Shown here: positions 1,445-19,538 of the stretch, piece by piece
How positions within the stretch are numbered: the first letter of the stretch is position 1
Layout: every line of letters begins with the position of its first letter
DNA from: a virus
Direction: 5' to 3' (one strand)
Virus record (IMG/VR): IMGVR_UViG_3300032282_001195
Coordinates: 1 to 22,483 of that record
DNA: 22,483 bases
The notes under the pieces: generated by a model
What the model saw: only the letters and a program-made list of their open reading frames with translations
The model's database searches: none
Told to the model about the DNA's origin: nothing
Made by a program: the position numbers and the translations under genes

Positions 1445-3073
1445 TTAGAATGATCCACCAGTGATAGGGTTTCTCATAACAATCTTCAATACCTTGGTTG
1501 GATCTTTAACCCAAATTGCAGGCATTGTTTGTGTCATGAATACACGGTAACCATTGAATTGTCCAGATGATTGGAATCCTTGTGTTCTTCCCATGTAATC
1601 CATTGTACCATTTTGATACCACCATTTCAATTGATTATCCCAAGATAATTTCAACATGAAGATGTTATCATTTCCAGTATCAGTGATATCAAAGATAACA
1701 AATGAATAAGAACTTAATGGGTTACCATCAATGATTGGATTCTCAATATCATTTGTATGTAAGTTATCAAATGCTGGGTTAAGTACAAACTTAACATTTG
1801 CTAAGAAAGGAATAACATAAGAAGTGAAGCTGAATCCAAAGTTCAAATCCATTGCATTAGTTCCTGTTACAGCACCAATACCTGCATTTTGTGCACCTTG
1901 AAGAACTAAACCTGAATTAACTGCTTCACGTTTAATAGCCTCATTTACCATTCTCATTCCACCCATACCTGTTTGAACAATTAATTGTCTCTTAGGATCT
2001 GGACCTTGGAACTCAATACGACCTGCATAGAAGTTGTAAAGCTCACCACGGAATAATTCAAGTGTAAAGTTAGTCTTGTTGTAAACTCTTTTGAAAGAGT
2101 TATCCAATTGCTTCCAAAGACCTACTGATAATCTCATATCATCTGGTCCATCTTGTTTAACTTTACCACCATGACCCCACATTAAGTAAGTCTCAATGTC
2201 AGTAGCAACTTTTGTCAAGTGTGCTGATTCCATAGTTGTTAAGAAAGTACGTGTCAAAGAACCATTTGCAACAGCTTTTTTCACATAATCTTTACCCATT
2301 ACAGATACCATATCTTCAATCTTAGTGATTGATGGATCCATTTGTTTGTCAAAGTTTCTCCAGATTTCTGTAACTGGTACAGTACCATCTGCATTAAGAC
2401 CACCTTTAACCATTAAGTCAGCTCTAGAAGATACTGAATAATGTACATGTGCTTCAGCTCCTCCTACAAAGTTGTAGAATTCACGGAAACCTGCACGTGT
2501 CATAACATCTGAGAATCTCTCACCGTACTCACCTCTTGCAGAACCTTTTCTGAAGATCTTAGTACCATTACTCAAATACTTGTTATCCAAGAATTTGTAG
2601 TTGTCATTGTTTACTAATTGTACAGTATAGATAAAACCATCTCCAATAGGAAGGATATCATCTACAGTGATGTACATCTCACAACCATTGTATTTATCAT
2701 AAGTGATGATATCACCATGACCAAATTCTCTACGGTTGATTTTAATTTTGAAGGTTGTTCCATCAATACCTTTGTTGATATTTTCTGGTTCAATGTCTTC
2801 AATGATGTATGGAAGCTCTTGAGAAACAGGAGTTTGCCATTTGTACTCACCACGAGCATTGTCTACCATGATGATGTTTTTACCACCAAAAGATGATAAT
2901 TGGTATAAAGGCATTTCAACTTTTTGAGCCATAGCCCAAATGTCTACTGGACCTAAATCCATTGGTTCTGCATTTTTAAGCATGTTCACCAAGTGGTATG
3001 AATCCACATGAGATGATGCTTGGTAATTGGTATCACGCAGGAATATACCATTGTTTAATACTGGAGTTGCCAT
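1445..3073 (-). CDS. Major capsid protein (HK97-type fold predicted)
   Basis: A 542-residue protein predicted to be the major capsid subunit that forms the icosahedral head shell. The call rests on context: it follows TerL, portal and an acidic scaffold-like gene, and is followed by a strong terminator, the usual place of the capsid gene in crAss-like phages. It is somewhat longer than is typical of those capsid proteins (about 500 residues). It has beta-rich character, no signal peptide and no membrane segment. The N-terminus (MATPVLNNGIFLRDTNYQAS) has no evident cleaved prodomain. No single motif is diagnostic, so homology is inferred. The leader AAAACAAAATG supports the start. Codon choice here looks more restricted than in neighbouring genes, as expected for a highly expressed virion protein, but this was judged by eye. 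Confidence 0.85.
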   Translation of the reverse strand: MATPVLNNGIFLRDTNYQASSHVDSYHLVNMLKNAEPMDLGPVDIWAMAQKVEMPLYQLSSFGGKNIIMVDNARGEYKWQTPVSQELPYIIEDIEPENINKGIDGTTFKIKINRREFGHGDIITYDKYNGCEMYITVDDILPIGDGFIYTVQLVNNDNYKFLDNKYLSNGTKIFRKGSARGEYGERFSDVMTRAGFREFYNFVGGAEAHVHYSVSSRADLMVKGGLNADGTVPVTEIWRNFDKQMDPSITKIEDMVSVMGKDYVKKAVANGSLTRTFLTTMESAHLTKVATDIETYLMWGHGGKVKQDGPDDMRLSVGLWKQLDNSFKRVYNKTNFTLELFRGELYNFYAGRIEFQGPDPKRQLIVQTGMGGMRMVNEAIKREAVNSGLVLQGAQNAGIGAVTGTNAMDLNFGFSFTSYVIPFLANVKFVLNPAFDNLHTNDIENPIIDGNPLSSYSFVIFDITDTGNDNIFMLKLSWDNQLKWWYQNGTMDYMGRTQGFQSSGQFNGYRVFMTQTMPAIWVKDPTKVLKIVMRNPITGGSF

Positions 3074-4481: not shown

Positions 4482-7247
4482 TTACTTTTTATTTTTATCA
4501 TTTTTCTTGACATCATATTTATTCTTGTTTTCTTGAGCTATTTTAAGATCAGTTTGTTTCATATCTTTTTGAGCTTGTACCTTCTCTCTTTCTATTGCAA
4601 GTTTATCTCTATTTAATCCTTCTTTAGAGGCTTGTATATTCTGTTTAAGGCCCATTGTTTGTTGAAACTCATCTGATTTTCTAAGGATATCCATTTGATC
4701 AGCATAGTCTGATTGCATGTTTTTATCAATATCTTGCATTGCACCATAACCAGCTGACTTAATCTCTGCAACAAGTAAATCCCTTCTTCTATCTTTCTCC
4801 TTCTCCATAGCTGTTGCATCAAGCTCCATTTGTTTTTCCTTAGTTTTTTGCTCCATATCAGCTTGTTGCATTTGCTGTTCATGTTGCATTTGTTCTTGTC
4901 TCTGCTCTTTAGCTTTAGCATCTGTTTGTTTAAGAACATGTGTTACTTCAGCTAATGATTCAGCAGCCATAACATTACCTAGGTCATAGATACTTGCACC
5001 AGCTGTATTGTTACTTACAGCTAATTGTTTTATCTTTTCTAGCATATCTCTATGGTTAGCCTTAGTAGTACAGAAGATATTGATATCTCTTAGCATTAAG
5101 TCTGTACCATTTATCTCAAAGTTTACCTTCTCATCTTCAGATGTCATGTACTGAAGTCTAATAGATGGTTTTCTAGAATGATAATACTGAGCTAAGTCAG
5201 TTCTCATTTGGTGTACTCTAGGCATCAAGTAATCAGAGTGTTGCATAAAGTAAATCTCTGTTTGAGCATATGATCCGGCCATAGCTTGCTCTACTCCTGT
5301 TGCTGTATTAGTTTGTCCAATCTGTTGACCTAATCTTTGTGGAGTAATACCTATTACCTCAAAGCATTGTTGCTTAAAGTAATTAGCCATTTGAATCCTG
5401 GATAACATCCTTTGAGTTTGCTCAAGATTCATTACTTGGAAGTGTTGAAAGTTTAAAGCATTCTCTGTATTAGTAATAGATGTATCTAAAGGAAGCATTT
5501 GGAAGTTCTTCATAGCTACATAAGCTTTAGCTAAGTTGTTCTTTCCCCAATCTTCTCCCAAAGAATGTCTAGGTAGAGCATTCTGGTCTAACATGATTAC
5601 TGTACCTAATTCATCTACTAGGATATCAGCTATCTGGTTATTTACTATGTTATATCCTATTTGGAATGGTTTCATTAAATCTACCATTGCAGTAGATCTT
5701 GTATTTCTATCTGAGAATACAGCACCCTCTACAGGTAATTTACAACCATAGAGAGTATTGTCCCCCTTGAATTGGAATTTCAGCTTACCCATTTTGTTTT
5801 GACCAATACCTAAATACATAGGATTGATACCTCCAGGGTTATTCATACCCCAGAATGATGGATGATTAGGGCCAATCTTTACACCACCCCATACTTCATT
5901 AATCCATATCCACTCAATATGTTCTCCAAAGATTAAGTTATCTTTAGATTTGTTTTTAAATAGTGCTGTATTATATATTGGTTTATCAGTAATTTTATAA
6001 TCTTCATCAACTATATCTACAATTACTTCACCTTCTTCTGTAACTTTTGTAAGGTGACCTATTTTTCTTTGAGATTTCCAATATGCTGTAGTTGTTCTAA
6101 GCATGAATGCCATACCCATATCAGTGTAATCTTCTGATTCACCTACTATCCAGTTAACAATATCACCTCCATTATAAAGGAAGTTATCATACATAGATAC
6201 AAATTGTCTATAAGCTAAAGAAGGCATATCTGTATTCCACTCATGAGACTTAGTAGCATCATAGTAAGAACCATCATTTTGGTAACCTTGTATAGGATAA
6301 CCTGCAGATCTTACTGGATAAATAGCTTCAATAGATTCAAGTTGTTCTTGAGTCATAAGGTAACCATACTTATCTATAATATCAGCAACTGTCATCATCT
6401 CTATTTTACCAACCCAATTACCTTGGGAGATATATCTAGCTTCTGGAGATTTATGATAAAAGGTCATTACAGGATTCCATAATTCAATATCATAATCATC
6501 ATCATTCATTCTAAAGTGCCAGAACTCTCTATCTGTGATAAGCATCTCTCTGAATGCTCTCTCTTCAAGCTCATCCATTTTGAATCTTTCTTCATCTACT
6601 TTAAATTGATGTATAGCCCATTGTTCTGCCATACTTCTATAATCTTTAACAAAGAAGTTTTGTATTTCTGGTAATGACTTAAGGCTTTCAGGAGACATTT
6701 GTTGTTGCATCTGCTCTTGTATTTGTGGATCTTCTGGATCCATACCTGCTTCAATCATCTTAGCAAGCATCTTTTGTTGAGCATCATTAAGCAACACATC
6801 TTCTATTGCTTGTCTTTTTTGTTCTAATAATTCATTATATGAGAACTCATCAACACCTCTAAAGGTAATCTTGGTATTTCTCTTAGCAAACTCAGCTGTA
6901 AGTACATTGATTACATTTGGGATAATTGGGTAGAATTTAAGTTCTAATGCTGACACATCTTCTTTTGTCAATGTCTCCATTAAATCTCTATTCTCATTGT
7001 TCTCTTCTACCATGTAGTCAGTTTTATCTATAACACCTTTTGCAAGCTTATAGTTTTTCATTAACCTTCTGGCATTTCTTCTTAATTGTTTAAGACCATT
7101 CCACTCTAACCAATCCAAATTCCAAGCTGTCCAATCTTCATCTTTCTCTTTTCTTGGGATAAATTGTATAGGTTGAGTTAAAGAACCCATTCTATTGTAT
7201 TCAGACTTGGCACCGGCCTTCATCTGCATTGCATTTAATACTTTCAT
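4482..7247 (-). CDS. Portal protein
   Basis: A 921-residue protein predicted to form the dodecameric portal ring at the unique capsid vertex, through which DNA is packaged and ejected. It directly follows TerL with one base between stop and start, the standard TerL-portal pairing. The N-terminus is rich in Trp and basic residues (about 38-70, with RRNARRLMKNYKLAKG). A segment YPIIPNVINVLTAEFAKR near residue 106 resembles the early conserved region of crAss-like portals. The last ~170 residues are a Gln/Glu/Lys/Met-rich coiled coil ending in a basic tail (KKNDKNKK). It is long for a portal because of this extension. The clip and stem regions cannot be assigned by eye. Confident from context, family assignment inferred. 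Confidence 0.85.
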   Translation of the reverse strand: MKVLNAMQMKAGAKSEYNRMGSLTQPIQFIPRKEKDEDWTAWNLDWLEWNGLKQLRRNARRLMKNYKLAKGVIDKTDYMVEENNENRDLMETLTKEDVSALELKFYPIIPNVINVLTAEFAKRNTKITFRGVDEFSYNELLEQKRQAIEDVLLNDAQQKMLAKMIEAGMDPEDPQIQEQMQQQMSPESLKSLPEIQNFFVKDYRSMAEQWAIHQFKVDEERFKMDELEERAFREMLITDREFWHFRMNDDDYDIELWNPVMTFYHKSPEARYISQGNWVGKIEMMTVADIIDKYGYLMTQEQLESIEAIYPVRSAGYPIQGYQNDGSYYDATKSHEWNTDMPSLAYRQFVSMYDNFLYNGGDIVNWIVGESEDYTDMGMAFMLRTTTAYWKSQRKIGHLTKVTEEGEVIVDIVDEDYKITDKPIYNTALFKNKSKDNLIFGEHIEWIWINEVWGGVKIGPNHPSFWGMNNPGGINPMYLGIGQNKMGKLKFQFKGDNTLYGCKLPVEGAVFSDRNTRSTAMVDLMKPFQIGYNIVNNQIADILVDELGTVIMLDQNALPRHSLGEDWGKNNLAKAYVAMKNFQMLPLDTSITNTENALNFQHFQVMNLEQTQRMLSRIQMANYFKQQCFEVIGITPQRLGQQIGQTNTATGVEQAMAGSYAQTEIYFMQHSDYLMPRVHQMRTDLAQYYHSRKPSIRLQYMTSEDEKVNFEINGTDLMLRDINIFCTTKANHRDMLEKIKQLAVSNNTAGASIYDLGNVMAAESLAEVTHVLKQTDAKAKEQRQEQMQHEQQMQQADMEQKTKEKQMELDATAMEKEKDRRRDLLVAEIKSAGYGAMQDIDKNMQSDYADQMDILRKSDEFQQTMGLKQNIQASKEGLNRDKLAIEREKVQAQKDMKQTDLKIAQENKNKYDVKKNDKNKK

Positions 7248-7248
7248 G

Positions 7249-9441
7249 TTATCTTAAATTTTTAAATGGAGACCTTGGTATTTTCATATTACTATTTACA
7301 CTAGTTTTTCCTATATGTCTAAAAGGGCTCATACTTAATTTATACAAATTTTTTGACTTTTCCAAGTGTTTTGTGTTTACATGTTCAACTCTTTTTCTAA
7401 ATCCTCTGTTAGCTTGCTGTACTTTTGCAAAAGCAATTAAGGCTGCTAATGATACTAATCTATCCACATTGACCCCATCATCATAGGCTTCCATCTCTAC
7501 AAAGGCCATGATATCAGGTATTCTTTCTACACCATAGGTAGTTCTTACTATAGTACCATCATCTTTAGTCTCATGATAGATCTCTTCTTTAAGGAATTCT
7601 ATTAGGTAACTAAGCATATGACTCTTAAATAGGGTACCTGTATTTTTCCAACCATATTCCTGGAATACATTATTATTGGCACCTAGGTCTTTTAAGAATA
7701 ATATTTGGTTCTTTGGTACTAGGTATCTTTGTTTCTTTCTTTGGATCATGTGGTTAATAAAGTGAGAGATGTTATTCTCTACTATGGTCCATGCATTATA
7801 CCACTCAATTATAAGTTCTAATCTCTCATGGGTTTTATTAATGTCATCAAACCTACCACACCATGATGCTACTATTTTATCAGATTCTGTATAAGTTTGT
7901 ATTTCTGCAGCTGTATGTTTAGTTACTTCTACTGGGTTCTTATAAACATAGATAGAACACAATGATTCAGATGTTGTAGTTTTACCTTCACCAACAGGGT
8001 CAATAGATGCATAATAGGTACCCCATTCTGCTGTAGCATCTGGTTTTTCCCATACAACTAATGTTCCGGTTTTGTCTTCTAGATTCTTAGTAATAGGAAA
8101 CTCTATGATTGGTAATTTATTAGTTGATTTACCTTCTACTTTACCCTCACTATTTCTTGAGAGTTCCATAAAATCATATGGATAACTCTTATCTTCTATT
8201 CTTCTTTTCTGAGCTGATACAAGATTTACTGGGAATTTAGATACTTTTCTAAATGCAAAAGCTTCATTAATATTCTTAGGATGCTGAGATATCCTTAATT
8301 GATATTGTTCTGGTTCTAGATCTTTCTTCCAAAATACTCTTTGTTCATCTATAGCTGCTATAGCTGCTTCTACTAATGAATTACCATATTCATCAATATA
8401 TGGAGGCATAGACCATTGTTCTGGAATAAATAACCCTGTCATGCCAATAGTACCTTTATCATCCAGTAGGTTGGTTTCTACTGAATAAATACCATTGGCA
8501 TCAGGATATAGGATCATTCTTTTAAGTGGTTGACATTGATCTAAGTCACCCACTGATCCTGCAGCTACAAATAATCCAGTTGTAATCATACCTGATTGCA
8601 TTGCTGGATATAAAAACTCTACTGTTGTATTCATCTTAGGAGCAATACCTGCCTCCTCATGGAAGAAGAATGTACAAGGTCCCCCTACTCCAGATGTAGG
8701 ATCTTTATCAAATGTTACTCCTTGTAAAACTCCTTTAAGACCTTTTTGTGATTTCCTACCATTAACAGTTTGCTCAATCTGCTGTTGCCACATTAATACT
8801 TTACCAGGATTCATTGGGCGGTACCATGCAGTATGCTGATCTAGGAAAGACTTATACTCATTAAGGAATTTCCAAGATCCTTTCTCATTGATGTAATCTT
8901 TAAGACTAGCACCCATTTTAATAATAGGTGTTTCTTCAAACCATAGAAGGTTTATCATCTTAGCACAATGATAATAGGAAGAAGCTATCTGTCTTTTCTT
9001 TAGTATTGCACAATGCTTGTAATTGAGCTCTGCCAATAACTCGTATAAGGCCATATGGTACTGGGCATCTCTGACACTTGGGAAGTCAAACTTTCTTTTT
9101 TCTTTATCATTAATTGGTAAGAAATTGAGCCACATGTAGTATTCACGTGGTAATAACCAAGTTCCTGTGGAGTCCTTGTATATGACACCGTATCTACATT
9201 TTTCTTTTTCTGCATCCCAGAATTTTCTGTAATCTTTGCTACCCATAGGGCCAGTAAAGAAATAACCATTTTTTCTAAATAAATCAGCTTGTTCTGTAAA
9301 TAGTAGAGAAGTTTCATTAAAATTATATTTACCAGGTTCTTTGAATAAAGTTAATACAAAGTCTTTATACTCATCTCTAGAATTAAAGATGGTATAAGTC
9401 CATTGTCCAAGTTCCCAAGTTGGGATCTTTATATAAATCAT
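7249..9441 (-). CDS. Terminase large subunit (TerL)
   Basis: A 730-residue packaging motor with an N-terminal ATPase and a C-terminal RNase H-like nuclease. Visible ATPase motifs are a deviant Walker A, KKRQIASSYYH at 148-158; Walker B with catalytic Glu, FFFHEEAG at 258-265; and a coupling motif around VAAGSVGD (292-299). Nuclease acidic residues are in YYASIDPVGEG (Asp481), VENN (Glu555) and NVDRLVSLAAL (Asp660). The Walker A lacks the classical GK[ST] ending and has its basic residues at the front, as in other TerL families. The C-terminal tail is basic. Its start overlaps the stop of the upstream 65-residue gene by ATGA, implying coupled translation. It is directly followed by the portal gene. 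Confidence 0.95.
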   Translation of the reverse strand: MIYIKIPTWELGQWTYTIFNSRDEYKDFVLTLFKEPGKYNFNETSLLFTEQADLFRKNGYFFTGPMGSKDYRKFWDAEKEKCRYGVIYKDSTGTWLLPREYYMWLNFLPINDKEKRKFDFPSVRDAQYHMALYELLAELNYKHCAILKKRQIASSYYHCAKMINLLWFEETPIIKMGASLKDYINEKGSWKFLNEYKSFLDQHTAWYRPMNPGKVLMWQQQIEQTVNGRKSQKGLKGVLQGVTFDKDPTSGVGGPCTFFFHEEAGIAPKMNTTVEFLYPAMQSGMITTGLFVAAGSVGDLDQCQPLKRMILYPDANGIYSVETNLLDDKGTIGMTGLFIPEQWSMPPYIDEYGNSLVEAAIAAIDEQRVFWKKDLEPEQYQLRISQHPKNINEAFAFRKVSKFPVNLVSAQKRRIEDKSYPYDFMELSRNSEGKVEGKSTNKLPIIEFPITKNLEDKTGTLVVWEKPDATAEWGTYYASIDPVGEGKTTTSESLCSIYVYKNPVEVTKHTAAEIQTYTESDKIVASWCGRFDDINKTHERLELIIEWYNAWTIVENNISHFINHMIQRKKQRYLVPKNQILFLKDLGANNNVFQEYGWKNTGTLFKSHMLSYLIEFLKEEIYHETKDDGTIVRTTYGVERIPDIMAFVEMEAYDDGVNVDRLVSLAALIAFAKVQQANRGFRKRVEHVNTKHLEKSKNLYKLSMSPFRHIGKTSVNSNMKIPRSPFKNLR

Positions 9442-13528: not shown

Positions 13529-13975
13529 TTAGTTTATTCTAATAAATCCTTTACAGGTATTAGTTTTTCTTATTCTTCTACACACTTCATAGCCTTCTCT
13601 AGAACCAGTATCATTTGTATTACCTTCTATTGTGTGAATAACATCACCTTCTATAGATTCAACAAATCCTGTATGACCTAAGCCATGACCATGATCCATA
13701 ATAAATATATCTCCTGGTTTAGGTGTTATACTTTTAAATTTATTATCAATCTCATACCATTGTCTCAATACTCCTCCGGTTTTAACTAAAGGATTATTTG
13801 GATTAGCTTCTTTACAACACCAATAGACAAAGGCCATGCACCATGATGCTGGGAAATCTATACCTACTGAATGTAGATAGTGTATTACAGCTGGTTTATC
13901 CTTTGTACCCCAATTACTTCCTCTAGGTACTTCTTCTTGGCCTATCTGAGTTATTGCTACCTGAATATGATTCAT
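13529..13975 (-). CDS. CHAP/amidase-type endolysin
   Basis: A 148-residue single-domain peptidoglycan hydrolase. The NlpC/P60-CHAP pattern is visible: catalytic Cys46 in ASWCMAFVYWCC, His101 in GLGHTGFVE and polar residue(s) around IEGNTN (117-122). PKPGDIFIMDHG precedes the His, as in CHAP domains. There is no signal peptide and no separate cell-wall-binding domain, usual for phages of Gram-negative hosts, so it should need a holin for access. The ATG overlaps the upstream stop as TAATG. The flanking small membrane proteins support a lysis cassette. Confidence 0.88.
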   Translation of the reverse strand: MNHIQVAITQIGQEEVPRGSNWGTKDKPAVIHYLHSVGIDFPASWCMAFVYWCCKEANPNNPLVKTGGVLRQWYEIDNKFKSITPKPGDIFIMDHGHGLGHTGFVESIEGDVIHTIEGNTNDTGSREGYEVCRRIRKTNTCKGFIRIN

Positions 13976-14088: not shown

Positions 14089-14290
14089 TTTTTCTTTTAT
14101 TAAAGTATTTTTGTTTAATGTATGCTATAGTACCTTTAAGTAAAAGCATTGTAAAATAAGAAGTTATAGCACCAATAAATGCACAAATTATTGTTGTTGC
14201 AATTGTTTGTGTTGGTATAGCTACTAAAGCTAAAAGGGTTCCTCCTGCTGTTCCTACTAAAGTTGAGTCATGTGTCATATTGTAATTCAT
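14081..14290 (-). CDS. Small two-span membrane protein, possible holin or antiholin
   Basis: A 69-residue protein with two hydrophobic spans, about 11-27 (LVGTAGGTLLALVAIPT) and 29-51 (TIATTIICAFIGAITSYFTM). They are joined by a very short turn and followed by a strongly basic tail (YIKQKYFNKRKNG). This is the shape of a small holin. It precedes the 37-residue peptide and the endolysin with overlapping starts and stops. A second candidate lies after the endolysin (13270-13518). Confidence 0.7.
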   Translation of the reverse strand: MNYNMTHDSTLVGTAGGTLLALVAIPTQTIATTIICAFIGAITSYFTMLLLKGTIAYIKQKYFNKRKNG

Positions 14291-14323
14291 TGTTATAAAT
14301 ATATATAAATAAATAAAAATCTT

Positions 14324-14695
14324 TTAATTTGAAGAGAATGATACTAATAATGTGCTACCTGTTGCATCCCATGAAAACAAGCTACCATCATACCAGTTAT
14401 TTACCCCGGGATCATAGTTAACAGTTGTTCCAGCTGGTATACTGATTGTACCACTACCACCTACAACAAGATCTATTGCAGAAGCCCCAACATTTGAGAA
14501 TGATACATTGTATATTATTGCAGAACCTGATAGATCATCACTACCTGTAGAAGATATTAGATATGGAAATATCTGTTTACCTGCTGTAGCTGGATTAATA
14601 GCAGCAGCTATTTCACCTAACAATTGTAAGTTTCTTAGTTGGTAAGGAAAATTATTTCCTTTATTACCTTGATCTTTTAAATTTCCTATTGACAT
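14324..14695 (-). CDS. Small virion-associated protein with beta-rich C-terminus
   Basis: A 123-residue protein. The N-terminus (MSIGNLKDQGNKGNNFPYQL and the following RNLQLLGE) is a polar then helical anchor-like segment. From about residue 50 it is Ser/Gly/Val-rich and beta-like (SGTISIPAGTTVNYDPG), resembling short tail or baseplate accessory proteins of Bacteroidota phages that often start with NLKDxGNxGNNFP. It follows directly after the modular protein block and precedes the lysis cassette. The exact role is unknown. Confidence 0.75.
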   Translation of the reverse strand: MSIGNLKDQGNKGNNFPYQLRNLQLLGEIAAAINPATAGKQIFPYLISSTGSDDLSGSAIIYNVSFSNVGASAIDLVVGGSGTISIPAGTTVNYDPGVNNWYDGSLFSWDATGSTLLVSFSSN

Positions 14696-14721
14696 GATAT
14701 GTTGTTTTTATTTAATTTATT

Positions 14722-15153
14722 TTAGCAATTATCTGCTGTGTTACAAAACTTTTCACCATCAAAGGTAAAAATACTTACATCTCTTTCTTGAGTATTTTCA
14801 CTAAAGTATAAACATGGAGGTGTATCAGAACCACCACACTGTGTTATATAAAAATATTGATTAGGAAAACAATAATCTATATCATCAGCTGTAGTATCTG
14901 GTTGACTTATAAGAATTATCTGATCACCAATAAGTTGTTTATTAGGATTAGCTAGGTGAAACTGTATATCGGTATATACAGTACTATCTATATAACCTAA
15001 TTGTACAATAGTTTTTCTAGCACCAGTTGTAATGTATACATCTCCATTTAATGGAGTAGAACTAGGTACTATAATACCTTCTTGTACTACAGTATCTATT
15101 GGTAAACCAGCTAATTGCCAGTTAAACTTTTTTGGTAGACTGAATAAATTCAT
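14722..15153 (-). CDS. Modular tail-associated protein, LPKxFNW family member A
   Basis: A 143-residue protein with the shared N-terminal signature MNLFSLPKKFNWQLAGLPI. Three upstream genes share it (15287, 16042, 16644), while the rest is unrelated to them. The body is beta-rich with Cys residues in its last third (CGGSDTPPCLYF and a CNTADNC end). No signal peptide is present. I infer that the signature docks these proteins on a common virion partner while the variable part differs in binding. Alternative: host-directed accessory proteins expressed late. Confidence 0.75.
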   Translation of the reverse strand: MNLFSLPKKFNWQLAGLPIDTVVQEGIIVPSSTPLNGDVYITTGARKTIVQLGYIDSTVYTDIQFHLANPNKQLIGDQIILISQPDTTADDIDYCFPNQYFYITQCGGSDTPPCLYFSENTQERDVSIFTFDGEKFCNTADNC

Positions 15154-15155
15154 AA

Positions 15156-15269
15156 TTATTTAGTTTTAACTTCTTTATCTTTTATAACAGTAATTTTGTC
15201 ATAGATTGCTTGACCTTTTTCTGCACCTAGCCTTGCTACAAGTGCATTTAATAATGCTGACTCTCTCAT
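15156..15269 (-). CDS. 37-residue small protein between modular genes
   Basis: ATG at 15269 to TAA at 15156 encodes MRESALLNALVARLGAEKGQ and then a Lys/Val-rich tail. It is amphipathic and helical, and exactly fills the gap between two members of the LPKxFNW family, ending two bases before the next start. The tight fit and a plausible helix support a real gene. No family is known to me. Confidence 0.6.
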   Translation of the reverse strand: MRESALLNALVARLGAEKGQAIYDKITVIKDKEVKTK

Positions 15270-15286
15270 TGTTTTATATTTTAAAA

Positions 15287-15865
15287 TTATGGATAAATAG
15301 TTATTTCTAATGCATTTTGTAAATAATAACCAAGGACATCATCAATAGGTCCTGATCCATTACCTGATAATATAATCATTTCGTTATCTGATATTGGAAA
15401 AATTGAAACAGCTACTCCAGAGAAAAATGCAAAACTATTAGTTATATTTGTTTGTGTATGTTGTGCTACAGGACAACCCATACCACAACCTGTAAAAATA
15501 GGTTTACTAGATGTTACAAGATAAGTACCTTCTGTAAGGTATTCATATGAAAAAGCTACTTCTGTGTTATTAGCTAATACTGTTCCTACAGGAGCTGATT
15601 GTTTAACATTAATAACTGCAGTACTATTAGTCCAAACAGTTGGGGTTGTTGCAGTAGCTATAAAAGGGATACCTAGTCCTGTATAACCTACATTAATAAA
15701 GTTATCTCCTATTTCTAGATAATTAATTACATACTCTACCCCAACTACTAATAGTCCAGATGTTGTATATACAGAATTCTGATATAGATCAGCTACATAT
15801 TTTTTTACAATTGGTTGACTAGCTAGTTCCCAATTAAATTTCTTAGGTAAGTTAAATTCGTTCAT
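15287..15865 (-). CDS. Modular tail-associated protein, LPKxFNW family member B
   Basis: A 192-residue protein starting MNEFNLPKKFNWELASQPIV, almost identical over the first 19 residues to member C (16042). After that it is unique and beta-rich, with alternating hydrophobic and Thr/Ser/Gly residues, a GCGMGCPVAQ segment near 127-136 and NGSGPIDDVLG near 168. The composition resembles receptor-binding or decoration domains. No enzymatic motif was found. It lies in a late-gene block following the fibre gene. Confidence 0.78.
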   Translation of the reverse strand: MNEFNLPKKFNWELASQPIVKKYVADLYQNSVYTTSGLLVVGVEYVINYLEIGDNFINVGYTGLGIPFIATATTPTVWTNSTAVINVKQSAPVGTVLANNTEVAFSYEYLTEGTYLVTSSKPIFTGCGMGCPVAQHTQTNITNSFAFFSGVAVSIFPISDNEMIILSGNGSGPIDDVLGYYLQNALEITIYP

Positions 15866-15870
15866 GGCTA

Positions 15871-16023
15871 TTATTTTTTAAACATAGTTTCTAATGCTGC
15901 TTTCATCTCTATTGTTTTAGCTTCAATTCTAGCTCTGTTAGGATTTACCTTTTCAGACATTAATCTAGCTTGTGGTTTAGGTCCCCAATTTTCTGGTTTC
16001 TTAAATAATGTTTTCTTTTCCAT
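15871..16023 (-). CDS. 50-residue Lys-rich small protein between modular genes
   Basis: ATG at 16023 to TAA at 15871 encodes MEKKTLFKKPENWGPKPQAR and a basic amphipathic helix ending LETMFKK. It lies five bases before the start of member B and 18 bases after the stop of member C. This is the same placement as the 37-residue gene, so each modular gene seems to be accompanied by a small partner. Function unknown. Confidence 0.6.
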   Translation of the reverse strand: MEKKTLFKKPENWGPKPQARLMSEKVNPNRARIEAKTIEMKAALETMFKK

Positions 16024-16041
16024 TGTATATAATTTTAAAGA

Positions 16042-16632
16042 TTAGTAAAGAGTAAACTTAATGTTTGTTGCTTCAGGAACTAAAAACTCAAATTCAAAAG
16101 CTGCAAAACCAGTTAAAGAAGTATCTGCTGTAGAAGAAGCAACTACTATATATAAATCTACTGCATCAGCAGCATATTGATCTACTGCAATATTCATAAG
16201 TTCTGCTGGAACTAAAGCATCAAGATTATCTGATACAGATGCTCCATTTGCAAATGCAGATATAACAGGACTTGGTCCTGGCCAACTTGGATAAGCAGTA
16301 ACAGATCCTGAAGTTTTATCTGGATATAAATATAAATTACTTCCATCAGTAGTTTCTACTGTACCAATATACTCTATAATAAAAGTACTACCATCAGCAG
16401 CTAAGTCATAAGCACCTACTACTTTATGTCCTACTAAACTTCCTACTGGAAACATAGTTGGAAATGCAGGTGTATCAATTATTTTAGTACATGTAGACAC
16501 CATAGCTGGTGTTACAGGAAAAGGATATAAATCATATATACCTGTTCTAACAGGTTGTTCTGTACATGTTTCTACAATAGGTTTACTTGCTAATTCCCAA
16601 TTGTATTTTAAGGGTAGTTTAAATTCGTTCAT
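16042..16632 (-). CDS. Modular tail-associated protein, LPKxFNW family member C
   Basis: A 196-residue protein starting MNEFKLPLKYNWELASKPIV, the shared signature. The remainder is beta-rich and Ala/Ser/Thr/Val-rich with no Cys beyond two in the first third and no catalytic pattern. A DLYPFPVTPAM stretch follows the signature and the C-terminal end is FEFEFLVPEATNIKF. Jelly-roll or Ig-like virion decoration is possible, but by composition only. Member D (16644) lies eleven bases upstream, so the two should be co-transcribed. Confidence 0.78.
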   Translation of the reverse strand: MNEFKLPLKYNWELASKPIVETCTEQPVRTGIYDLYPFPVTPAMVSTCTKIIDTPAFPTMFPVGSLVGHKVVGAYDLAADGSTFIIEYIGTVETTDGSNLYLYPDKTSGSVTAYPSWPGPSPVISAFANGASVSDNLDALVPAELMNIAVDQYAADAVDLYIVVASSTADTSLTGFAAFEFEFLVPEATNIKFTLY

Positions 16633-16643
16633 ATCTTTATGTT

Positions 16644-17012
16644 TTATTGAATATATACTTGTACTTCTATGTATGCTGTTCCATTAAGATCTACTGCATG
16701 TCCACCATCTAAAGTAAAAATTACTATTTGTGAAGGATTTGTAAAACCTTTTATTATTGATGCTGCAGCTGAACCAAGACTTGTTAAAACAAAGGTAGAT
16801 GTATTAAATTCTCCACCTTCTAATGTTCCATAATAGTATCCTCCAATAGCATCTCTTGTCCAAATAACATTGGTCTTTAGGGTATTTTCTAATATTGTAA
16901 CTACTGGATCAGCTGTCCCAGTTTGTGTCAATATAGCCTTATATATAGTTGGAATCTTGGTACTAGCTTTTTCCCAGTTATATACTTTAGGTAAATCAAA
17001 TTCTTGCATCAT
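16644..17012 (-). CDS. Modular tail-associated protein, LPKxFNW family member D
   Basis: A 122-residue protein starting MMQEFDLPKVYNWEKASTKI, the most divergent copy of the shared signature. The C-terminal ~95 residues are beta-rich (YKAILTQTGTADPVVTILEN) and end HAVDLNGTAYIEVQVYIQ, a pattern seen in small phage adaptor or decoration proteins. It is the first gene after the promoter-like pair at 17051-17072, so it leads the modular block. A start at the second Met is equally possible. Confidence 0.75.
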   Translation of the reverse strand: MMQEFDLPKVYNWEKASTKIPTIYKAILTQTGTADPVVTILENTLKTNVIWTRDAIGGYYYGTLEGGEFNTSTFVLTSLGSAAASIIKGFTNPSQIVIFTLDGGHAVDLNGTAYIEVQVYIQ

Positions 17013-17050
17013 TGAAATATTGTTTTATGGTATATACTAATATACTAATA

Positions 17051-17072
17051 TTCAGTCAAATATACAAATAAT
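17051..17072 (-). promoter_or_regulatory. Predicted promoter elements of the modular-protein block
   Basis: On the minus strand ATTATTTGTATATTTG contains two overlapping TTTG boxes. The second is TATATTTG (exact TAnnTTTG), and the first shows the TTTGYRTAWW extension (TTTGTATATT at 17068-17059). The ten bases 17059-17068 are identical to those at 21309-21318 upstream of the phosphoesterase gene. It lies in the 84-base gap before the modular genes. No clear -33 box. Confidence 0.5.
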
Positions 17073-17096
17073 ATTTAAAACTATTTCTTTAATTTG

Positions 17097-17258
17097 TTAT
17101 TCTTCTTTTACAGTTTCAGTTTCTGCAGGTTTTAATTGGGGAGTTGCTTGAGTATTTAATTTACCAATAAGATTGTTCACCTCTTCAAAAGGAAGTTTAC
17201 CCAATGCTTTTACAATTGTATTTGCTTCTTCTAATGTTAATGTAAATGTCAATTCCAT
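17097..17258 (-). CDS. 53-residue protein of the tail block, MELTFTLTLEEAN type
   Basis: ATG at 17258 to TAA at 17097 encodes MELTFTLTLEEANTIVKALG and a following GKLPFEEVNNLIGKL helix, then a Pro/Glu-rich tail (PAETETVKEE). The short strand plus two amphipathic helices is a pattern I recall from many small phage proteins near tail genes, in several host groups. Function unknown. It fills the gap between the 64-residue gene and the promoter. Confidence 0.75.
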   Translation of the reverse strand: MELTFTLTLEEANTIVKALGKLPFEEVNNLIGKLNTQATPQLKPAETETVKEE

Positions 17259-17280
17259 AATATATTATTTTAGTTTATTA

Positions 17281-17475
17281 TTAATTTTGAAAGTCTTTAG
17301 GCACATCTGTAAAGATAGCATAACCTCCATCAAACTTAATAGTATTGTCTATTATTTGAGCATTAGGAAGCTCTGTTGCTCTGTCAATAATAAACTGATT
17401 TATATCATCAGTTAATTGACTTATGCCCATATTTTCAGGCTTGCTTGGTGAATTAAAATAGATTAATTTTTTCAT
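17281..17475 (-). CDS. Unknown 64-residue protein after the tail fibre
   Basis: A soluble protein beginning MKKLIYFNSPSKPENMGISQ with an IDRATELPNAQIIDNTIKFD middle and an aromatic end (GGYAIFTDVPKDFQN). It starts two bases after the fibre stop, so it is probably translated from the same message. There is no membrane segment or known motif. A small virion or chaperone-like protein is possible. Confidence 0.7.
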   Translation of the reverse strand: MKKLIYFNSPSKPENMGISQLTDDINQFIIDRATELPNAQIIDNTIKFDGGYAIFTDVPKDFQN

Positions 17476-17477
17476 AG

Positions 17478-19538
17478 TTATATTACTGCTAATAATTTAT
17501 AAGTAGTTCCGTTAATTACTATTGTTACTGTTCTATTTGAAACAACAGTTTCAGTTGTTACAGTTTGTGTCAATTCAATGTTTCCTGCAAATAGACTTTT
17601 GCCACCTTGTACCCATAATGCATATGAGTTAGTTATTGTAGCATTAGTACCAGCAATTGGTGAAGCAGTTATTGCTAATGTAGCAGCAGTAGTTATAGTT
17701 GATGCTCCAACAAATGAGTAAGTTGGTGCATTAATTACTGCAAATCTTTGTGTAGTTAAAGCACCTGTTGCATGCTGACAAGTAACTGTTGCAATATTAA
17801 AACTTAATTGTTCAGTTGATGCAGTTTGATTTGTATTTGATGAAGGTAATAATGAAATACTTGTTAATGCACTAGAAGCAGTTGGAACAGTACCTATTTG
17901 TGTAGTTCCATTTGTTATGCTCATTCTATTTGTTCCACCAATAGCAAATATTAAACCATTTCCATTTAAGAAAGTGTTTCCACTATTTGCACTTCCAACC
18001 TTTAAAATATAGTTAGTTGCTGATGGTGCTGTAGTTTGGTCATTGAATAAAAATATACAAGGGTCAGCAGCAGTTGCAGTAGCTTGTCTAAATATTAAAC
18101 TTCCTGTACCATCATTGACTCTTACTGCTCCACTTTGTGACCAAATAGAATAAGCATTGGTTATGGTTGCATTACTTCCAGCAATAGGAGCTGCTTCGAT
18201 AGCTAAAGTTGCAGCACTTGTTATTGTACTTGCACCAACAAATGAAAATGTAGGAGCTGTGATAAAATTCTCTCTTTGAGTTGTTAAAGCACCTGTTGCC
18301 CATTGTCTACTTCCTGAATTTATCTTAAACCCCGATATCTCAGTAGATAATGTTTGATTTGTGTTAGCAGGATTGGTAAATACAAATGAAGATGATGCAC
18401 CACTTGTCTGAACAGCATTATTGAATGCTAAATTACCACTACTACCTATAACTTTTGGAGTAGTAATGTCAGTTAAAAATATTGGAGATGTCATTGTCTT
18501 TGCACCTGCAAATGTTTGACTTCCTGTTGTTATAACGCCTCTAGCTGTTGCACTTGCATCAGGTAAGTTAAACTTATGATCTGAACCTGAATCAACTATT
18601 GCAAAGTCTGTCCCTGTTGTTCCTGTGGTTAATGTTTGTGCTGCACCTGTTAGTGAGTTAATAGCAGTGATTCCTGTTCCAGCCATGATACCACTTTGCT
18701 GTGTAACAGTCATGATTACAGAAGCTGCAGATGGAGGAGGTGAACCTGCTGCATAAAAACGCATCTCTACATTAGTGTAATCTGTTGTACTCCAAACTAA
18801 TTCGTAGTATTGACCTGCAACAACACTTAACACATAGTTCCATCCTGCTATTATATGAAATGGATCACCTGGATTCTTTCTTGCTTGTAATCCAACAACA
18901 CCAGCAGTACCTGCTATATCTGTCCCATTTAATCTTAACCAAATGGTTACATCTTGAGGAGCATTTGATAGATTTTGAAACTGAGAGCTAAACTGAATGT
19001 TATAAATACCTGTATTTGCAAAAGTAATTCTTGTCGGGTCACCACTTCCATTGTTTACTATTGATATCCCATTAGGAGTTATATCAGCAGTATGGTACTT
19101 CATTGCATACCCTGTGTTATTTGCAGCAGCAGTTTGAGTGAAATCATCTTGCCAAGCACCATAATAACCTAATGGTGTTGCTGTAGCTGTATTTGTTAAT
19201 ACACCACCTGATAAAGTCAATCCTGAACCAACAGTAATCTCTTCCATTATACCTGTCCCTGCAGTACTTCTACCAACAAGTTTATTGGTGTTCATGGATG
19301 TAGTAATAGTACCTGATGTGGTTATAGGACCTCCAGATATAAGACCTGCTGTGGCTACTGATGTTACAGTACCTGTACCTCCACCGGGGATAGTTACTAT
19401 AGTTTTAGTACCACCATCTGCAACCGTTACACCTGCTCCTTGAAAGTCAAGTATAGTCTGTTGGGGCAATGCTACACCTTCATCTTCAATAGTTTGGTAT
19501 GCTGTTTCAATAGCTGGATATGAATAATAGGTTCTCAT
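17478..19538 (-). CDS. Tail fibre or tail spike protein with repeated distal modules
   Basis: A 686-residue protein, probably the receptor-contacting fibre. Residues 1-120 are Gly/Thr/Ser-rich (GTVTSVATAGLISGGPITTS, then GSGLTLSGGVLTN), typical of fibre shafts in Bacteroidota phages. Residues about 122-283 form a compact, aromatic-rich domain (GAWQDDFTQTA ... TGIYNIQFSSQFQ ... YYELVWSTTDYTN) resembling a C1q/TNF-like jelly roll. Two ~90-residue repeats follow at about 383-475 and 564-653, each containing NTNQTxSTE, ATGALTTQR and SFVGASTIT. There is no S74 chaperone domain or recognisable lyase motif. Its TAA overlaps no gene, but its ATG shares one base with the upstream stop (TAATG). Confidence 0.85.
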   Translation of the reverse strand: MRTYYSYPAIETAYQTIEDEGVALPQQTILDFQGAGVTVADGGTKTIVTIPGGGTGTVTSVATAGLISGGPITTSGTITTSMNTNKLVGRSTAGTGIMEEITVGSGLTLSGGVLTNTATATPLGYYGAWQDDFTQTAAANNTGYAMKYHTADITPNGISIVNNGSGDPTRITFANTGIYNIQFSSQFQNLSNAPQDVTIWLRLNGTDIAGTAGVVGLQARKNPGDPFHIIAGWNYVLSVVAGQYYELVWSTTDYTNVEMRFYAAGSPPPSAASVIMTVTQQSGIMAGTGITAINSLTGAAQTLTTGTTGTDFAIVDSGSDHKFNLPDASATARGVITTGSQTFAGAKTMTSPIFLTDITTPKVIGSSGNLAFNNAVQTSGASSSFVFTNPANTNQTLSTEISGFKINSGSRQWATGALTTQRENFITAPTFSFVGASTITSAATLAIEAAPIAGSNATITNAYSIWSQSGAVRVNDGTGSLIFRQATATAADPCIFLFNDQTTAPSATNYILKVGSANSGNTFLNGNGLIFAIGGTNRMSITNGTTQIGTVPTASSALTSISLLPSSNTNQTASTEQLSFNIATVTCQHATGALTTQRFAVINAPTYSFVGASTITTAATLAITASPIAGTNATITNSYALWVQGGKSLFAGNIELTQTVTTETVVSNRTVTIVINGTTYKLLAVI
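17580..17849 (-). repeat. Fibre repeat, distal copy
   Basis: Codons for fibre residues about 564-653. The encoded module runs NTNQTASTE ... HATGALTTQR ... SFVGASTITTAATLAI ... IAGTNATITNSYALW and is closely similar to the copy at 18114-18392. It is a tandem-like duplicated domain separated by a ~90-residue linker. Boundaries are approximate. Confidence 0.75.
18114..18392 (-). repeat. Fibre repeat, proximal copy
   Basis: Codons for fibre residues about 383-475. The encoded module runs NTNQTLSTE ... WATGALTTQR ... SFVGASTITSAATLAI ... IAGSNATITNAYSIW. It matches the distal copy (17580-17849) at most core positions. The duplication could allow recombination that changes fibre length. Confidence 0.75.

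Follow-up and report, generated by a model that had tools for sequence, protein, structure and literature searches.

Four neighbouring genes in a fragment of a crAss-like phage open with one conserved peptide, behind which stand three different kinds of body. In the most likely reading, this N-terminal tag works as a plug by which different short surface fibres are held in a single kind of socket on the particle. Judging from sequence comparisons, these genes probably code for short appendages of the particle surface, either fibres or decoration proteins, and the tag probably acts as a lineage-specific docking peptide for a crAss-like virion. A preliminary description of this DNA had reported the four genes (143, 192, 196 and 122 aa) with their common tag, and both the reading frames and the quoted N-termini could be confirmed. 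It had further proposed a docking or export tag carried by interchangeable late proteins. Docking is backed by the recurrence of two body families, Body I and Body III, behind other anchors, by other phages that repeat one anchor on neighbouring genes with different bodies, and by the position of Body I as the C-terminal domain of fibre-like proteins. Export found no support.

Genomic context of the tagged genes

The window, by which we mean the whole stretch of DNA analysed, is a 22.5-kb virus record. Its assignment to the crAss-like phages follows from a crAss-type capsid gene together with crAss-type portal and terminase genes in the conserved order (Table 1). In tblastn searches the window portal matches crAss-like portals, and among cultured phages the best match is the portal of Leptolyngbya phage Lbo-JY46 (31% identity). 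All structural genes and all four tagged genes lie on the minus strand. Along the direction of transcription, the gene series starts with a metallophosphatase, the 686-aa fibre-like gene and the four tagged genes, continues with the GNLKDQGNKGNNFPYQL-tagged gene, a small membrane-type protein, the CHAP endolysin and several small genes, and ends with a PD-(D/E)XK nuclease, the terminase, the portal, a 416-aa gene and the capsid gene. The 686-aa gene has no family match in Pfam or PHROGs. In the 122-aa gene a second methionine at 17009 aligns with the starts of the other three tagged genes, and translation of this gene probably begins there. A protein 100% identical to the window's 278-aa nuclease-like protein is encoded on another contig (L097:1952-2785), which is probably a further piece of the same virus, ending short of the tagged genes.

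Table 1. Coordinates of the tagged genes and of selected neighbours in the window.
Feature	Position	Strand	Evidence or remarks
Major capsid protein, crAss type	1445..3073	-	Pfam Crass_capsid 6.3e-31, exceeds curated cut-off
Portal protein	4482..7247	-	phrog_6547, 2e-84
Large terminase	7249..9441	-	phrog_6681, 7.2e-58
CHAP endolysin, lysis gene adjoining the tagged set	13529..13975	-	Pfam CHAP 1.6e-14; phrog_9589 endolysin 3.4e-17
123-aa neighbour whose N-terminus bears another recurrent tag, MSxGNLKDxGNKGNNFPxQL	14324..14695	-	36-gene family alike in N-terminus only
143-aa tagged gene	14722..15153	-	tag 15094-15153; body without detected relatives
192-aa tagged gene	15287..15865	-	tag 15806-15865; Body I interrupted by insert, ~15599-15772
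196-aa tagged gene	16042..16632	-	tag 16573-16632; Body III 16045-16557
122-aa tagged gene	16644..17012	-	tag 16950-17009; Body I ~16650-16943
686-aa Gly/Thr-rich fibre-like gene adjoining the tagged genes	17478..19538	-	role inferred from composition and place

The tag peptide

All four genes conform to the consensus M-x-x-F-x-L-P-[KL]-x-[FY]-N-W-[EQ]-x-A-[SG], and when the 20-residue tags are aligned together with four relatives, M1, F4, L6, P7, N11, W12 and I19 are invariant. The six possible tag pairs score 42-84 (ungapped BLOSUM62, residues 2-20), as compared with a maximum of 11 among 351 pairs drawn from the N-termini of the 27 other window genes and a maximum of 31 among 300,000 random 19-mer pairs; the similarity of the tags thus far exceeds chance. 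At the DNA level the copies form one 80-nt repeat family with 63-75% identity to the reference, confined to the tag and a few flanking bases. Per tag pair, between 2 and 9 of the 20 positions hold an identical residue encoded by a different codon. So many synonymous differences among the copies indicate that the peptide has been maintained by selection and that no fresh duplication is involved.

Beyond the window, nine viral contigs contain the tag pattern in its exact form, near-copies of one virus being included in this number, and in eight of them it opens a reading frame. Variant tags also exist, such as MAIIxPLKKxFNWQT on two neighbouring genes (L021/L260), MGYPEYKIxKTxNWQL (L255 and L258) and MALPEYKMMRNFQWQN (L106). 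The preliminary description had named as counter-evidence a tag belonging to a known domain whose body is shared as well; two of the four bodies are indeed homologous, but no Pfam or PHROG family covering the LPKxxNW peptide was found. The tag has no regular structure in the 122-aa protein as modelled with AlphaFold2.

Three kinds of body behind one anchor

In the tagged proteins a compact domain follows the conserved N-terminal peptide of about 20 residues. These bodies had been described as unrelated, which holds for the 196- and 143-aa proteins, whose bodies differ from each other and have no detectable relation to Body I. It does not hold for the other two genes: an iterated profile built on the body of the 122-aa protein picks up that of the 192-aa protein (iE 7.7e-24), so that on profile evidence both belong to one domain family, Body I. 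The 192-aa protein carries an insert of about 57 aa inside Body I (about residues 32-89; SGLLVVGVEYVINYLEIGDNFINVG...TPTVWTN), for which there is no match among cultured phages.

Body I is common and occupies a characteristic place. An alignment-based scan confirmed 218 relatives, and in 78 of 80 nonredundant phage proteins the domain forms the C-terminal end (end within four residues). About 34 N-terminal families precede it in these 80 proteins, long tail fibres included. Short carriers of fewer than 200 residues number 39, and proteins of 400-1500 residues are also among the carriers. The annotation of the corresponding genes in cultured phages reads tail fiber, structural protein or DUF285 protein; the accessible part of the literature on Baltic and North Sea Flavobacterium phages yielded no virion proteomics for Body I proteins. 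A signal-peptide-like start, MKKxxLLLL, is present on long proteins ending in Body I (L183, L204, L212, L221, L227, L235 and L248). Export by the Sec route is not normal for virion fibres, where a start of this kind is unusual.

For the 122-aa protein, AlphaFold2 (30 sequences; mean pLDDT 79.8) predicts an all-beta domain of eight strands. The best match of this model among solved structures is the C-terminal part of the phiAB6 tailspike (86-102 residues, rmsd 2.5-3.5 A), with a Z score of 8.8 that barely exceeds the background which models usually give when they lack a clear match. Weaker matches comprise WSSV VP37, the Pam1 tailspike, C1q-type heads and the AP22 tail fibre. A Foldseek search of the model against the PDB returned nothing significant, and Body I has no match among PDB sequences. 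Little above background as it is, the phiAB6 match agrees with the place that Body I takes in proteins, that of a putative fibre tip.

Body III, which the 196-aa protein carries, has three relatives in IMG/VR (L261-L263; 68, 64 and 54% identity), the similarity being confined to the body. Their N-termini are quite unlike the tag and represent two unrelated anchors, M-x-x-[KR]-K-[FI]-K-x-x-S-P in L261 and L262 and MDILNFISWIKxKR in L263, where it is repeated on a neighbouring gene. In L262 (229-7510), five neighbouring genes carry the anchor M-x-x-K-K-x-K-x-x-S-P-D, and one of these has collagen repeats and strong tail-fibre PHROG matches. Body III is the clearest instance of a body transferred between anchors, and together with Body I it shows that recombination among phages shuffles anchors independently of bodies. 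For the 196-aa protein, the model (mean pLDDT 51) was too poor for a fold search.

No relatives of the 143-aa body were detected in profile searches, and this protein could be something other than an appendage. A resemblance by eye to the body of L088/L255 ('Body II') was rejected, as the profile comparison lent it no support. When Bodies I, II and III were compared pairwise by profile, no relation emerged.

Repeated anchors across crAss-like loci

We surveyed crAss-like loci for genes that are alike at the N-terminus only, without using the tag as a query. The largest families found in this way are GNLKDxGNKGNNFPxQL (36 genes), LNNLxNFFNLI/MDILNFISWIK (17), the LPK tag (12) and MDIVKIQSLIAQGRVV (9). 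Over all loci, genes that share an N-terminus within a single locus form 17 nonredundant groups, which belong to at least eight anchor families. These within-locus groups make the window one case of a rule, according to which each lineage places copies of its own anchor in front of several bodies. The idea of cassette diversification, also put forward earlier, is borne out only as an evolutionary exchange of modules. No reverse transcriptase, recombinase or long repeat that would point to active tip diversification, by a diversity-generating retroelement or an invertible cassette, was seen among the scanned genes of this 22-kb fragment or in the repeats of 14200-17300.

Further observations concern individual anchors. 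The MSxGNLKDxGNKGNNFPxQL tag precedes different bodies in the window (14324-14695) and in L053, L083, L089, L090, L093, L114, L116 and L139. One GNLKD-tagged protein matches phrog_1645, 'virion structural protein', over almost its entire body (2.5e-138). The hub-like anchor family LNNLxNFFNLI has a match to gp22 of crAss001 that is too weak to establish a relation (iE 0.02). At L261:759-4852, three neighbouring genes share yet another anchor, KKRAFVRYSKQGKIVPGSLI, following the same principle as the window. In L260 (4087-4968), the gene of a 293-aa protein with a helix-turn-helix-like start separates the capsid gene from the tagged pair; it may be a mobile gene and so mark a site of insertion.

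A proposed docking peptide and its alternatives

We propose that the peptide would plug each tagged protein into one kind of docking site that is repeated on the virion, while the body would face outward and bind the host surface. New tips may arrive from other phages by recombination and would be retained once they are joined to the local plug. Candidate sites are a tail-fibre hub and a capsid hexon pocket. The small size of the proteins and the location of the L260, L255 and L258 genes beside or near capsid genes speak for the capsid; the tail is favoured by the fibre-like proteins in which Body I occurs and by fibre-like neighbours bearing the anchor of the Body III relatives. We also entertain, as a rather doubtful extension, a mosaic particle in which the four tips would compete via the shared 20-residue plug for equivalent sites, each virion thereby displaying mixed specificities; with other plugs, such an arrangement would be general in environmental crAss-like phages.

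The tag might bind another fibre instead of the hub or the capsid, in which case the four proteins would be secondary tips of a branched fibre. Precedents exist in phage K1-5, whose tailspikes bind the adapter gp37 via a hepta- and an undecapeptide, and in KP32, whose second receptor-binding protein carries a conserved 29-residue N-terminal peptide (PMC6872550). The long fibre-like gene adjoins the tagged set, and gp22 of crAss001 bears further tail fibre proteins (PMC10172136). However, a T4gp10-like branching domain was not found in the 686-aa gene by Pfam or PHROG searches, and tag variants lie beside capsid genes and away from fibre genes (L260, L255 and L258), which renders docking to an adapter unlikely.

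Slightly less credible still is a capsid-targeting sequence (CTS), which would bring diverse internal proteins into the prohead, the bodies then acting in the host after ejection. The T-even internal proteins, which have only their CTS in common, show the same pattern, in which small proteins that are otherwise diverse begin with one short conserved stretch (PMC3012670), and cargo proteins are present inside crAss001 particles (PMC10172136). Yet the CTS proteins are packaged inside the head, whereas the bodies in the window have their relatives among the C-terminal domains of fibre-like proteins; Bodies I and III are common to such proteins behind other anchors, which fits the exterior of the particle.

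Plain tandem duplication of one ancestor, whose bodies would have diverged past recognition while the N-terminus was kept, is very improbable, since for all the adjacency of the four genes on one strand and the homology of the 122- and 192-aa bodies, the occurrence of Body III behind unrelated anchors at such high identity, and of Body I behind so many N-terminal families, rules out divergence in place as their source; as a whole explanation it is contradicted for Bodies I and III, and it could apply to the 143-aa body or to the 122/192 pair.

Comparison with known phage fibres

The docking-peptide reading finds a close analogy in crAss001, likewise a crass-type phage with genes in a fibre and lysis region, whose fibres comprise gp21 and gp29 on the head and gp22 on the tail (PMC10172136). 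As in the window, gp21 (97 aa) and gp29 (123 aa) are small and combine a short N-terminal docking segment with a separate C-terminal domain, which in gp29 is an Ig-like beta-sandwich. Residues 1-38 of gp21 and 1-58 of gp29 are docking segments in hexon pockets, residues 1-26 of gp22 dock on the tail hub, and the authors of that work expected uncharacterized analogues in other crassviruses (PMC10172136). The tagged proteins fit this fibre plan in both size and layout. In contrast, profiles run against the crAss001 proteins reveal no sequence similarity of gp21, gp22 or gp29 to the tag or Body I, the N-termini of the three proteins also giving no match to the tag, and each crAss001 anchor is found on one protein, whereas the window has one anchor on four.

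The K1-5 and KP32 systems resemble the window in their short conserved N-terminal peptides or anchors and in tips that are exchanged horizontally between phages (PMC6872550). They differ in belonging to another phage group, in their unrelated sequences and in their large enzymatic tips, as compared with four neighbouring short genes that share one peptide. Short docking peptides and tip exchange are thus already known (PMC6872550). As far as open papers were checked, the LPKxxNW peptide and its use on four neighbouring short genes are new, and so are the families of bodies and the tally by which repeated anchors prove frequent in crAss-like phages.

These anchors serve as a code from which the surface proteins of an abundant and mostly uncultured phage group can be read. 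The tag marks genes that are likely to encode appendages for one site, and the bodies, which lack a named Pfam or PHROG match, qualify as candidate tip domains. Several neighbouring tips with a shared plug would allow one particle several specificities, and recurrent anchors, of at least eight families, could aid the annotation of fibre genes overlooked by whole-protein searches.

Among cultured phages, we finally highlight Flavobacterium phage elemo (NC_055854), in which gp34 carries Body I and the set likewise lies upstream of the terminase and portal genes. Its gp33 and gp34 share an N-terminal anchor of their own, MAxIKTYxxD, which is different from the tag in the window, and gp50 of the same phage has a weak similarity to Body I (iE 0.089).
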